Source: Hyphococcus sp. (lineage in GTDB: Bacteria > Pseudomonadota > Alphaproteobacteria > Caulobacterales > Parvularculaceae). Taken from it: a stretch of DNA of 64,000 nt. The stretch is from NCBI GenBank assembly GCA_013002535.1, contig JABDJK010000017.1, forward strand, positions 1 through 64,000, read 5' to 3'. Below the pieces are notes generated by a model, which saw only the letters and a list, made by a program, of their open reading frames with translations, did no database searches and was not told the origin of the DNA. Below are positions 18,586-53,325 of the stretch, one piece after another. Within the stretch, counting starts at the first letter, position 1. Each line of letters begins with the position of its first letter. The position numbers and the translations under genes were made by a program.

Positions 18586-21500
18586 CTAAATCAACTCCAC
18601 GTCCGCGACCCCCGGGACGCCTTTCATGGCGCCGCGCATGGCGGGGGTGCAGGCGGCGGGCTCTGCCAGCGTAATCTCAATATCGCGCGCGTCGTCGGCG
18701 AGATGCATGGAAATGATAACTTTGCCGCGTTCCTGATCATTCGCTGGTTTCACCGCTGCAAGGCGCCGCTTGATCGCTGCGAGAGCGCTTTCAGAGGTCA
18801 CCGCTATACGCAATTGCGACGAGGTCGACGCCGCGGCAATGTCTAGGGAGCGCATCCCTTCGCACGTCAGGCGAACATCGCCGTCGCGGTCTTCGGCGAC
18901 CGCGGCGACGAGCACCAGTTTTCCGGATTCAAGAAGATCGCGCGACACCTCCAGCGTTTCGGAAAACGCTGTGATTTCATAATCACCGGTGGCGTCGGAA
19001 AGCTCGATCCAGGCGAACGGTTTGCCGGCTTTTGAGCGCCTCATGCGAATAGTGCGGATAACGCCCGCCATTTGAAACGCCTCGCGCCCGCCTTTCGCGC
19101 GCTCGATCGCTTCTTGACAGGTAACTACATTCAGGCGCCGCAGTTCGCGCTCATAATCATCGAGCGGGTGGCCCGAGAAATAAAAGCCCAGCGCCACGCG
19201 TTCCTCGTCCAGGATTTCCTGCGCCATGCGCTCTTCAACCACAGGAAGTTTAGGCTTCTCAAGATTGGGCGCGCCGTCAAGAGCAAAGAGCCCGCCTTGA
19301 TCGGAGCTTTTTTCCTCCTGCACCTGCGCCGAATAGCGGATGAGAAGTTCAGCCGCCGCGATCGCCTGCGCCCGCGAGGCGCACATGCCATCAAAGGCGC
19401 CAGCTTTCGCAAGATATTCAATTGACCGTTTACCAACGGCTTTCAAATCGACACGTTCCGCGAAGTCAATTAAATCTGTGAACGGACCACCCTCTTCGCG
19501 CCCGTTGATGATCCCTGCCATTGCGGCATCGCCGACATTTTTGACCGCTGACAACGCATAAACGATTGCGCCGTCTTTCACTGAAAAGTCCGACAAGGAA
19601 TGGTTTACATGGGGCGGCAGCACTTCGACTTCGCTGCGACGCGCTTCTTTCAGGAAAATCGCAAGCTTGTCGGTATTGGTGCGGTCAAGCGACATGGACG
19701 CCGCCAGAAATTCCGGGGCATGGTTCGCTTTCAGCCACGCTGTTTGATAGGCAATATAGGCATAGGCGGCGGCATGGGATTTGTTGAAGCCGTAGCCGGC
19801 GAATTTTTGGACGAGATCGAAAATCGCAGACGCCTTGGCTTTCGGGACATCGTTCTTCGCGGCGCCGTCGACGAAACGGACGCGTTGCTTGTCCATCTCC
19901 TCTTTTTTCTTTTTGCCCATAGCGCGGCGCAACAGGTCAGCCTCGCCAAGGGAATAGCCGGACAGGATCTGCGCAATCTGCATCACCTGTTCCTGATAGA
20001 TGATGACGCCGTATGTCTCCTTCAGAACGTCTTCCAGCATCGGATGGAGATAATCCGGCTTTTGAATGCCTTGTTTGCGCTCAATATACGTCGGGATATT
20101 CTCCATCGGGCCTGGCCGGTAGAGCGAGACAAGGGCGATGATGTCTTCCAGCGTGTCCGGTTTCATCGAACGAAGCGTTGAGCGCATGCCAGCGCTCTCC
20201 AGTTGGAAGACGCCAGTCGCCGCGCCCTCGCCCAGCATTTCGAAGGGCGCGCGATCGTCGAGTGGGATCTTTTCGATATCGACTTCGATGCCGCGCTGTT
20301 TCAAATAGCCGACGGCGCGCGCGATCACTGTGAGTGTTTTGAGGCCCAGGAAGTCAAATTTTACGAGGCCCGCTGGCTCCACCCATTTCATGTTGAACTG
20401 CGTCGCCGGCATATCAGAGCGCGGATCACGATAGAGCGGCACTAATTCTTGTAAGGGGCGATCGCCAATGACAACGCCCGCCGCGTGTGTCGAAGCGTGC
20501 CGATAGAGCCCTTCAAGCCGGAGCGCCTTTTCGATGAGCGCGGCAACCGCTGGATCAGATTTTCGTTCTTCTTGGAGGCGCGGCTCACTTTGCAACGCTT
20601 CGCCAAGAGTTACCGGGTTCGCCGGATTGTTCGGCACCAACTTACAGATGCGATCTACATGGCCGAATGACATGTTCAGGACACGGCCAACATCGCGCAA
20701 CACCGCCCGCGCCTGAAGCTTTCCGAAGGTGATGATCTGCGCGACCCGGTCGCGGCCGTATTTTTCCTGGACGTAGCGGATAACTTCGTCGCGGCGATCC
20801 TGACAGAAGTCGATATCGAAGTCGGGCATGGAGACCCGTTCAGGGTTAAGGAATCGCTCGAAGAGGAGCCCGAACCGTAATGGATCAAGATCGGTTATGG
20901 TCAACGCCCAGGCGACCAGCGACCCTGCGCCGGATCCCCGGCCCGGCCCCACCGGAATGCCTTGGGCCTTTGTCCATTTGATGAAATCAGCAACGATCAG
21001 GAAGTAGCCCGGAAATCCCATGGAATTGATGATGTCGAGTTCGCGTTTAAGGCGCGCCCAATAGTCGGCCTCGTCTGTCGCCGGTTCGTTTTCTTTGAGA
21101 CGCATCTTCAGGCCTTCGCGGGCCTGTCGCTCAAGTTCCATCGCCTCGTTCTTCTCAACGTCTGCGTCATCACCGCCAATCTCAACAAAACGCGGCAAGA
21201 TAGGATCGTGAAATCGCGGCCGGAAAGCGCAACGCTGCGCTATCTCGACAGTATTCTCGGTTGCCTCTGGCAGGTCGGCGAAAAGTGCGCGCATCTCCGC
21301 GCCAGTCTTGAAATAATGATCCGCGGTCACCCGGCGGCGATCATCCTGGTGAACGTAGGCGCTCTCGGCGATACACATCAGCGCATCGTGCGCCTCATAA
21401 TCGTCCGGGGTCGGAAAGAATGGCTCGTTTGTCGCTACGAGCGGCAGCTCCAACTTGTATGCAAGGGAAATTAACTCCGCTTCGCGCGATACGACTTTTC

Positions 21501-22041
21501 GTTCTTCATGGCGCCCGATCTCAACATAAAGCCGGTTAGGGAAAATCAGCGACAGGGTTTGCAGCGCTTTTTCAGCCTCAGCCGGGCGACCCGCGCGTAA
21601 AAGGCGATCAATCGGTCCGTCAAAACCACCCGTAAGGCAGATGATGCCCTCGCCGGCCTCGCCAAGCCGCATCAGGTTCGAACAAGGGCCCTCCTCGGAA
21701 ACGGAATCCAGGAGCGCATCACTCGTGATCTTCAGAAGGTTTTTGTACCCCTTCTCCGACTGCGCCAGCAGCACCAGCGATGGCGGACGCTCACCGCGCG
21801 AAAGTGGTAATAAGAAATCATCCGCGGAAAAAGTCTGCTGGATCCCGATAATCGGTTGAATCCCGACACCGGCAAGCGTTTCGGATATTTCAAGCGCGCC
21901 AAAGAGATTGTTGGTGTCGGTGACGGCGACTGCGGGCATCTTTGTTTCGATACAAAGATCGCGCAGTCGCGACACCGGAATCGCCCCTTCGGAGAGCGAA
22001 TAAGCAGAATGAAGATGGAGGTGAATAAATCCGGCGGACAA
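18586..22041 (-). CDS. dnaE: DNA polymerase III alpha subunit DnaE
   Basis: The replicative polymerase catalytic subunit (DnaE1 type). The 1151-residue chain starts with the PHP domain (FIHLHLHSAYSLSEGA). Next come the polymerase palm with GPGRGSGAGSLVAW and the catalytic aspartates in PDFDIDFCQDRRDEV (about residues 400-412), the fingers with HASTHAAGVVI, and GYGFNKSHAAAYAYIAYQTAWLK. A helix-hairpin-helix region and an OB fold (about residues 990-1060) follow. The reading frame must start at TTG 22041, since an in-frame stop lies just upstream; the AAGG site is weak. The PHP histidines look largely conserved. Confidence 0.96.
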   Translation of the reverse strand: MSAGFIHLHLHSAYSLSEGAIPVSRLRDLCIETKMPAVAVTDTNNLFGALEISETLAGVGIQPIIGIQQTFSADDFLLPLSRGERPPSLVLLAQSEKGYKNLLKITSDALLDSVSEEGPCSNLMRLGEAGEGIICLTGGFDGPIDRLLRAGRPAEAEKALQTLSLIFPNRLYVEIGRHEERKVVSREAELISLAYKLELPLVATNEPFFPTPDDYEAHDALMCIAESAYVHQDDRRRVTADHYFKTGAEMRALFADLPEATENTVEIAQRCAFRPRFHDPILPRFVEIGGDDADVEKNEAMELERQAREGLKMRLKENEPATDEADYWARLKRELDIINSMGFPGYFLIVADFIKWTKAQGIPVGPGRGSGAGSLVAWALTITDLDPLRFGLLFERFLNPERVSMPDFDIDFCQDRRDEVIRYVQEKYGRDRVAQIITFGKLQARAVLRDVGRVLNMSFGHVDRICKLVPNNPANPVTLGEALQSEPRLQEERKSDPAVAALIEKALRLEGLYRHASTHAAGVVIGDRPLQELVPLYRDPRSDMPATQFNMKWVEPAGLVKFDFLGLKTLTVIARAVGYLKQRGIEVDIEKIPLDDRAPFEMLGEGAATGVFQLESAGMRSTLRSMKPDTLEDIIALVSLYRPGPMENIPTYIERKQGIQKPDYLHPMLEDVLKETYGVIIYQEQVMQIAQILSGYSLGEADLLRRAMGKKKKEEMDKQRVRFVDGAAKNDVPKAKASAIFDLVQKFAGYGFNKSHAAAYAYIAYQTAWLKANHAPEFLAASMSLDRTNTDKLAIFLKEARRSEVEVLPPHVNHSLSDFSVKDGAIVYALSAVKNVGDAAMAGIINGREEGGPFTDLIDFAERVDLKAVGKRSIEYLAKAGAFDGMCASRAQAIAAAELLIRYSAQVQEEKSSDQGGLFALDGAPNLEKPKLPVVEERMAQEILDEERVALGFYFSGHPLDDYERELRRLNVVTCQEAIERAKGGREAFQMAGVIRTIRMRRSKAGKPFAWIELSDATGDYEITAFSETLEVSRDLLESGKLVLVAAVAEDRDGDVRLTCEGMRSLDIAAASTSSQLRIAVTSESALAAIKRRLAAVKPANDQERGKVIISMHLADDARDIEITLAEPAACTPAMRGAMKGVPGVADVELI

Positions 22042-22110: not shown

Positions 22111-22206
22111 TCAAGCCGCCAGCAGCACACCCCAGAATTGAACGGCGCCAATTACCATCATGAGTACGCCGAGTCCGACGACATCGCGCAAGGTTTCGTT
22201 TTCCAT
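22111..22206 (-). CDS. Tiny SOS-type membrane protein, SidA-like (31 aa)
   Basis: A 31-residue ORF too short for normal gene finders. It has an excellent Shine-Dalgarno (CGAGGAAGCT just before ATG 22206). The peptide begins MENETLRDVVGLGVLMMV and continues with IGAVQFWGVLLAA, so it is a short polar N-terminus plus one transmembrane helix. The promoter has ideal 17-base spacing and two LexA boxes. Known: Caulobacter SidA is a 29-aa LexA-controlled inner-membrane peptide that blocks division through FtsW/FtsN. Inferred: this is the equivalent checkpoint peptide, from size, topology, LexA control and position upstream of dnaE. No alignment could be run. Confidence 0.72.
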   Translation of the reverse strand: MENETLRDVVGLGVLMMVIGAVQFWGVLLAA

Positions 22207-22222
22207 AGCTTCCTCGTTTGTT

Positions 22223-22237
22223 GTTCGTCTTTTGTTC
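22223..22237 (-). promoter_or_regulatory. LexA (SOS) box 1, GTTC-N7-GTTC
   Basis: Plus-strand GTTCGTCTTTTGTTC is a perfect match to the alphaproteobacterial LexA operator GTTC-N7-GTTC. It covers the last bases of the -10 and the transcription start region of the SidA-like gene. Confidence 0.88.
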
Positions 22238-22264
22238 TATATTCTCTTTTTGTTCTTTTGTCTA
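22236..22264 (-). promoter_or_regulatory. Sigma-70-type promoter of the SidA-like gene
   Basis: Read on the minus strand: -35 TAGACA (22264-22259), spacer of 17 bases, -10 TATAGA (22241-22236). Both LexA boxes overlap it, one between the -35 and -10 and one over the downstream edge of the -10. It may also serve dnaE, 165 bases further on. Confidence 0.75.
22241..22255 (-). promoter_or_regulatory. LexA box 2, ATTC-N7-GTTC
   Basis: Plus-strand ATTCTCTTTTTGTTC differs from the consensus in one base. It lies in the promoter spacer, 18 bases in phase from box 1. Two operators suggest tight repression. Confidence 0.65.
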
Positions 22265-52492: not shown

Positions 52493-52521
52493 TTGACGCC
52501 CAATAGGAACAATCATAGAAC
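52493..52521 (+). promoter_or_regulatory. lexA promoter with overlapping LexA box
   Basis: -35 TTGACG (52493-52498), 17-base spacer, -10 TAGAAC (52516-52521). The LexA box GAACAATCATAGAAC (52507-52521), i.e. GTTC-N7-GTTC on the other strand, covers the spacer and the whole -10, as expected for autorepression. Confidence 0.87.
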
Positions 52522-52539: not shown

Positions 52540-52608
52540 TTTTCGAGTTGGGTGAAAAGACAAGACCTGAAATTGGCCGCGCCCGCAACTTGGGCGTTAG
52601 GAGGCGAA

Positions 52609-53325
52609 ATGCTCACCAAGAAGCAGCACGAGTTGCTCGTATTCATCAATGACCGGATCGCTCAGACCGGCGTGTCGCCGTCATTTGACGAGATGAAGGA
52701 CGCCCTTGGCCTGCGCTCTAAATCCGGGATCCACCGGCTGATCACAGCTCTAGAAGAACGAAAGTTCATCCGCCGGCTTCCGAACCGCGCCCGCGCACTG
52801 GAGGTTCTTCGTATTCCCGATGACCTCGCATCGGCTGAACCGAAAGCGAAACCGGCGAACTTCTCACCGTCGGTTGTCGATGGCGGATTCTCCCGCCGAC
52901 GCGGCGCCTCCCCGCGAAAACAGCCTGCCGCCCGCGCCGGCGTTTCGGATTTGCCGGTGCTTGGCCGTATTGCGGCCGGTACGCCGATTGAAGCGATCCA
53001 GCATGAAGTTGACCGGGTCTCCGCGCCCGATACGCTGATCGGCTCCGGCGAACATTATATTCTCGAGGTACAAGGGGAATCGATGATCGACGCCGGTATT
53101 CATGACGGTGATTATGCGATCATCAAACAATGCGACGACGCTGGTTCAGGCGACATTGTCGTCGCACTCGTTGACGACGAAGAAGCAACGCTAAAACGCC
53201 TGCGCAAGAAGGGCGCTTCGGTCGCGCTTGAAGCCGCCAATCCGGAGTTTGAGACCCGCATATACGGCCCAGACCGCGTCGCCGTGCAAGGCAAGCTCGT
53301 TGGCCTGATGCGGCGCTATCACTAG
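52609..53325 (+). CDS. lexA: SOS repressor LexA
   Basis: Represses DNA-damage genes until RecA-stimulated self-cleavage. The 238-residue protein has an N-terminal winged helix ([17 protein letters not shown]...[20 protein letters not shown]), a longer than usual linker (about residues 75-115), the Ala-Gly cleavage site ([10 protein letters not shown]), the catalytic Ser in [14 protein letters not shown] and Lys in [20 protein letters not shown] before ATG 52609 fixes the start. Confidence 0.97.

Follow-up and report, generated by a model that had tools for sequence, protein, structure and literature searches.

A candidate SidA-type SOS division inhibitor encoded directly before dnaE in a Parvularculaceae bacterium

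The gene before dnaE and its surroundings

The window, that is, the whole stretch of 64,000 nucleotides analysed here, belongs to a 3.44 Mb draft genome of Hyphococcus sp. and contains on its minus strand a 31-aa ORF situated directly before dnaE, with the start signals and LexA boxes collected in Table 1. A sequence-only reading had described at this place a small ORF with a strong Shine-Dalgarno upstream of dnaE, together with a promoter of spacing 17 covered by two LexA boxes, and every one of these elements was recovered at the same positions, the TTG start of dnaE lying 69 nt beyond the ORF stop codon on the same strand. Both promoter hexamers are read from the sequence, the TAGACA/TATAGA pair being absent from the output of a sigma-70 scan of the window. 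According to hydropathy, the peptide of ~30 aa combines a polar head with one membrane-type helix, and insertion in the membrane would be expected. Its only Pfam match is VUPS, below threshold (18.7 bits vs a cutoff of 27).

Table 1. Coordinates, strand and basis of the features discussed (positions of the window).
Feature	Position	Strand	Basis or remark
dnaE, replicative DNA polymerase III alpha, PHP domain	18586-22041	minus	NF004226; TTG start
31-aa single-helix ORF, candidate SidA-type	22111-22206	minus	ATG start; peptide MENETLRDVVGLGVLMMVIGAVQFWGVLLAA; conserved in genus, pN/pS 0.28
Shine-Dalgarno GAGGAA	22210-22215	minus	read from sequence; upstream stretches of relatives also inspected
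LexA box GAACAAAAGACGAAC	22223-22237	minus	overlaps -10 and expected transcription start; motif scan and conservation
Second, degenerate LexA box GAACAAAAAGAGAAT	22241-22255	minus	within -35/-10 spacer; GAAT half-site in 23/23 loci with upstream DNA
-10 TATAGA	22236-22241	minus	read from sequence
-35 TAGACA	22259-22264	minus	read from sequence; spacer to -10 of 17
LexA box upstream of lexA, GAACAATCATAGAAC	52507-52521	plus	motif scan
lexA	52609-53325	plus	TIGR00498, 173.5 bits for the scanned stretch 52606-53325 (longer by one codon)

A comparison of the dnaE product with NF004226 gives 1446 bits against 1002 and the model for the error-prone DnaE stays below its cutoff, which indicates the replicative type. 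Between the peptide ORF and dnaE, the window scan lists no terminator-like site, and five or more T in a row are present in only one of 22 gaps before dnaE in the genus. An RNA element in this gap was considered and rejected because the fold of the window's intergenic RNA is no better than that of shuffles (z of -0.01). Since neither a terminator-like site nor an unusual RNA fold appears between the two genes, transcriptional read-through into dnaE would be plausible.

The proximity of both genes, with the ORF stop 41-128 nt before a conserved F-(V/I)-H motif located a few codons into dnaE (22 genus loci), also fits a leader peptide or upstream ORF regulating the translation or transcription of dnaE. 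However, the peptide sequence itself is conserved, as its low pN/pS indicates, the intergenic RNA folds like its shuffles, and in the genome G002 (a 40-contig draft with a contamination of 2%) an intact gene with intact boxes occupies a contig other than that of dnaE, all of which makes such a leader very improbable. In G002, the peptide gene is found near ORFs that resemble, by eye, an acetyltransferase and a kdsD-type isomerase, and no box is present within 900 nt before dnaE. Because this copy lies away from dnaE, the link between peptide and polymerase would not be obligatory, unless the draft is misassembled, and the peptide gene with its boxes looks like an autonomous unit.

LexA boxes and conservation in the genus

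The LexA motif of Caulobacter is described as GTTCN7GTTC and also as (T/A)TGTTC(N6)TGTTC (PMC12700426, PMC13384398), and about 97% of the SOS promoters in that organism are reported to carry a single LexA box (PMC12700426), against which the double box observed here is unusual. The count of GTTCN7GTTC in the window is not significant (3 found vs 2.4 expected), and the pattern is equally unenriched in the whole genome, with 91 sites vs 88 control matches. One of the three window sites corresponds to the peptide promoter and another is placed 87 nt before the start codon of lexA; the 64-kb window therefore holds both the candidate SidA-type gene and a lexA under its own LexA box. In the genome, ORFs with UvrA, UvrB-type, IMS (Y-family polymerase) and MmcB domains carry this box right at their first possible start or no more than 40 nt from it. 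On the basis that it precedes lexA and these repair-domain ORFs, the GAAC/GTTC-type box is the LexA box of this genome.

From the 91 genome sites, 30 loci and 20 regions, the latter chosen mostly for AT-rich cores, were inspected. Among 20 ORFs scanned near box sites, 11 have a Pfam match and 4 of these are DNA repair proteins, the remaining matches being DUF455, MraZ, radical SAM, glyoxalase, histidine kinase, Fic and EamA. Given that just 4 of the 20 are of the repair type and that 37 of 56 site lines fall within ORFs exceeding 150 codons in one frame or another (several loci overlap), many of the sites are probably due to chance. No exact box precedes recA, for which a one-mismatch copy is found 109 nt before the start of the model match. 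Also, an MraZ-domain ORF is preceded, at a distance of ~150 nt, by GTTCCATTTCTGTTC (G000:C83 of the window genome), although this could be chance.

Because the box pattern by itself is unenriched, conservation was used as evidence instead, and it is conservation, not motif count, that raises the promoter site above chance. A search of 149 genomes, the window's own included, recovered the 31-aa peptide, with E below 1e-8, from 23 of the 27 genus relatives as well as from the window genome; three of the four negative relatives are assemblies without the dnaE start, and in the other one the contig ends inside dnaE. Every one of the 23 genus loci for which upstream DNA is available, the window among them, keeps the 33-bp double box, GAAC-N7-GAAT-N3-GAAC-N7-GAAC, always 16-39 nt before the ATG (a 24th locus starts at a contig end and was left out of the box count). 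The 24 coding sequences give a pN/pS of 0.28 in the frame of the ORF compared with 0.90 and 2.83 in the shifted frames, with variabilities of 0.117, 0.046 and 0.237 for the three codon positions. The peptide consensus, MENExLRDVVGLGVLxxVIGAAQxWGALLGA, was derived from 19 sequences, of which three belong to other genera of the family. A search with the peptide alignment returned 25 named loci, with titles such as Marinicaulis sp., Parvularcula sp., Parvularculaceae bacterium and Alphaproteobacteria bacterium, Marinicaulis being placed by NCBI under Hyphococcus, Parvularculaceae, Parvularculales.

Given that the frame, the peptide and the low pN/pS are conserved across the genus, the 31-aa ORF is a real conserved gene. 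Loss of the ORF or of its boxes in close relatives, which had been set beforehand as the observation that would speak against the proposal, was looked for, and both turned out to be conserved. The lack of enrichment of GTTCN7GTTC in window and genome is what a chance ORF beside a chance motif would predict. Nonetheless, this explanation has to face the joint conservation of frame, peptide and double box and also the behaviour of a fixed detector (box, Shine-Dalgarno and a 22-45-aa ORF with hydrophobic core, upstream of dnaE), passed by 0 of 4360 shuffled regions, so that its probability is practically negligible. The position and conservation of the boxes suggest LexA control of the peptide gene.

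The SidA locus and the range of the layout

The protein that motivates the comparison is SidA, CCNA_02004 in the Caulobacter strain NA1000 (PMC10769358). The NCBIfam model for SidA, NF033228, gives no match with the window peptide at E<=1, its curated cutoff of 35 bits not being reached, and no match in the window genome at E<=0.1. Over the 149 genomes (own included), it exceeds the cutoff in 12, all of family f3, which would correspond to Caulobacteraceae, and a comparison of coordinates places the 12 matches directly upstream of dnaE on the same strand. Nine further f3 genomes show a match below cutoff in the same place before dnaE, and an f3 peptide read upstream of dnaE reaches 72.4 bits. 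Fourteen named control genomes were also searched, four of which give any match, Caulobacter vibrioides among them, and one exceeds the cutoff, presumably that of C. vibrioides. Since the matches over cutoff are also directly upstream of dnaE, the window peptide occupies the SidA locus, and the window ORF presents the traits of a SidA-type locus, namely a position directly before dnaE on the same strand and LexA boxes at the promoter.

The sequence itself is less telling. The alignment with SidA that the sequence-only reading proposed failed in direct form (hhalign of the window-family profile against SidA, null at 1%) and was obtained, weakly, through family f5, whose profile matches SidA with 95.8% (E of 7e-9) and is bridged to the window family with 33% (E of 4.5e-4). 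In column permutations with the Arg/Asp anchor held fixed, 65 of 20000 were as good as the observed match of the window family to the combined profile and 223 of 20000 for its match to f5. For the window family vs SidA alone the figure is 8554 of 20000, and it is 1860 of 20000 for the single window peptide vs the combined profile. A permutation with all columns free (1 of 20000) was set aside as inflated, given the prior registration of the sequences on the anchor, and the fair comparison is the one with the anchor fixed. Sequence homology to SidA would thus be indirect and modest. With a clear match only between f5 and SidA, the case for orthology rests on locus, regulation and architecture, to which sequence adds modest support, and one small helix might conceivably have been substituted for another at this site.

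The detector was applied to all fetched regions that extend 150 nt or more upstream; it is strict and may choose an internal start. It was passed by 22 of 23 genus loci, the exception being G027, which a contig end truncates, and by 26 of 31 among the other family members (f1; 26/32 if G002, the genus member with its copy elsewhere, is counted), 18 of 21 in f5, 10 of 22 in f3, 9 of 22 in f4 and 0 of 22 in f2. Outside the order, 17 of 24 passed in the order of G177 and 3 of 52 in other orders, one of them doubtful (G151). By eye, which is a less strict count as it admits some peptides for which no box was found (G045, for example), peptides sharing this register are seen in 31/31 of the rest of the family, 21/21 of f5, 22/22 of f3, 12/22 of f4 and at least 21/24 in the order of G177. 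Three family members without a dnaE start (G034, G035 and G043) were left out of the counts. By eye, therefore, no assessable genome of the window's family, f3 or f5 lacks the peptide (that of G002 lies away from dnaE), which is also seen in part of f4 and most of the second order. ORFs with a LexA box and one helix precede dnaE in four of the five sampled families of the order (one of them partly) and in a second order.

In family f2, GAACAN6GAACA is found at 57 sites in four genomes vs 12 control matches, and this box type seems to persist while the peptide is absent before dnaE. A search for small SOS-box ORFs elsewhere in f2, covering 30 of the 57 box sites in the four genomes, gave none that passed. 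As a motif match only, a lolD-like motif pair is present within ~900 nt upstream of dnaE in 22/22 of f2, 16/21 of f5, 18/22 of f4, 4/22 of f3, 2/29 of other f1, 0/21 of the genus, 6/22 of the order of G177 and 31/51 of other orders. The pN/pS in the wider groups is 0.39 for the order of G177, 0.42 for f3, 0.66 and 0.73 for f5, 0.76 for f1 outside the genus and 0.00 over six f4 genomes, values obtained with nearly saturated synonymous sites except in f4 and carrying little information for f5 and f1.

Several individual loci deserve mention. The sequence MAQLQDAAAFAAILAFTLMAWGWGAVIG before dnaE is identical in six f4 genomes of genus g12 (pN of 0.000, pS of 0.43). In the second alphaproteobacterial order, a LexA box and a conserved peptide with the core IIKSGFECAAFAGALGMMVFWADIV are located upstream of dnaE. 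G150, outside the order, encodes MTNFLKDFLALSSVVGVLWAVTVWSAIVGSALT under a LexA box before dnaE, SidA-like by eye and with no NCBIfam match at E<=1. Finally, in G092 and G115 a GAAC-N7-GAAT box precedes the dnaE match by ~70 and 80 nt, no peptide being visible in the interval, and dnaE itself might be LexA-controlled in these genomes.

A tentative reading of this distribution, which we regard as possible and rather less probable than its opposite, is that the module of LexA box, one-helix peptide and dnaE is an old alphaproteobacterial SOS checkpoint, present in at least two orders, kept beside the polymerase, lost in some families and co-inducing dnaE. If true, polymerase supply and division arrest would rise together, and the checkpoint would not be a Caulobacter speciality.

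Proposed function and comparison with known systems

SidA is described as a 29-aa inner-membrane protein acting on FtsW, in a model where FtsW/FtsI/FtsN are held inactive, and the change of Caulobacter FtsW A31 to Lys is reported to suppress it (PMC4211646); deletion of lexA is reported to filament Caulobacter through sidA (PMC12700426). We propose, with a probability of about 0.8, that the 31-aa peptide is the divergent SidA-type SOS division inhibitor of this Parvularculaceae bacterium. The suggestion of a local checkpoint of this type thus gains support from the conserved ORF and boxes and from the shared SidA place before dnaE, even with no match to NF033228. In undamaged cells, LexA on both boxes would block the access of RNA polymerase to the promoter, as their position and conservation suggest. 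Upon DNA damage, RecA would trigger the self-cleavage of LexA, opening the promoter, and the short leader with its strong Shine-Dalgarno would be translated into the peptide. By analogy with SidA, this would bind FtsW in the inner membrane and keep FtsW/FtsI/FtsN inactive, delaying septation, and transcription may continue into dnaE.

The window genome encodes an FtsW-family protein, scoring below the model's cutoff, whose residue equivalent to A31 of Caulobacter appears to be Ile (by a deduced numbering), being uninformative either way. The alignment block of this residue contained two empty rows each for f2 and f4 and two f1 rows in wrong frames, and these rows were left out.

TisB is a single-helix SOS peptide of E. 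coli, and loci of the TisB/DinQ type carry antisense RNAs. A LexA-controlled membrane peptide with another job, for example a disturbance of the membrane that slows growth as in these cases and not a binding to the divisome, would agree with the indirect sequence link between the window peptide and SidA, and a second single-helix SOS peptide, DinQ, is described in E. coli (PMC3567139). On the other hand, the place of SidA before dnaE is shared with syntenic ORFs across the order, which leaves this alternative unlikely, and inhibition of FtsW by a SidA-type peptide is the preferred reading.

Searches of the open-licence literature yielded no report that places SidA relatives in this family or describes the link with dnaE. 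Small size and fast divergence characterise the SOS division inhibitors, the curated model for SidA being over cutoff in one family only, and a locus anchored on dnaE offers a simple rule for finding them. This rule makes testable the co-evolution of FtsW and its inhibitor, what, if anything, took the place of the peptide in f2, and why an SOS promoter stays before the replicative polymerase.

Compared with the SidA of Caulobacter crescentus, the window peptide shares a length of ~30 aa, one hydrophobic helix, LexA-type boxes and the position directly before dnaE, whereas it differs in lacking a match to NF033228, in its acidic MENE head and in its tryptophan, located 17 residues after the conserved acid vs 12 in SidA. 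YneA from Bacillus and SosA from Staphylococcus differ from the window peptide in architecture and are not known to have a syntenic relation with it. Both are likewise SOS-induced division inhibitors, and for YneA, described as a membrane protein (PMC9578287), an interaction with FtsW is reported. DidA from Caulobacter is also described as a small single-helix division inhibitor induced by damage; however, it has 71 aa, is activated by DriD and not by LexA cleavage, and binds FtsN (PMC4211646).
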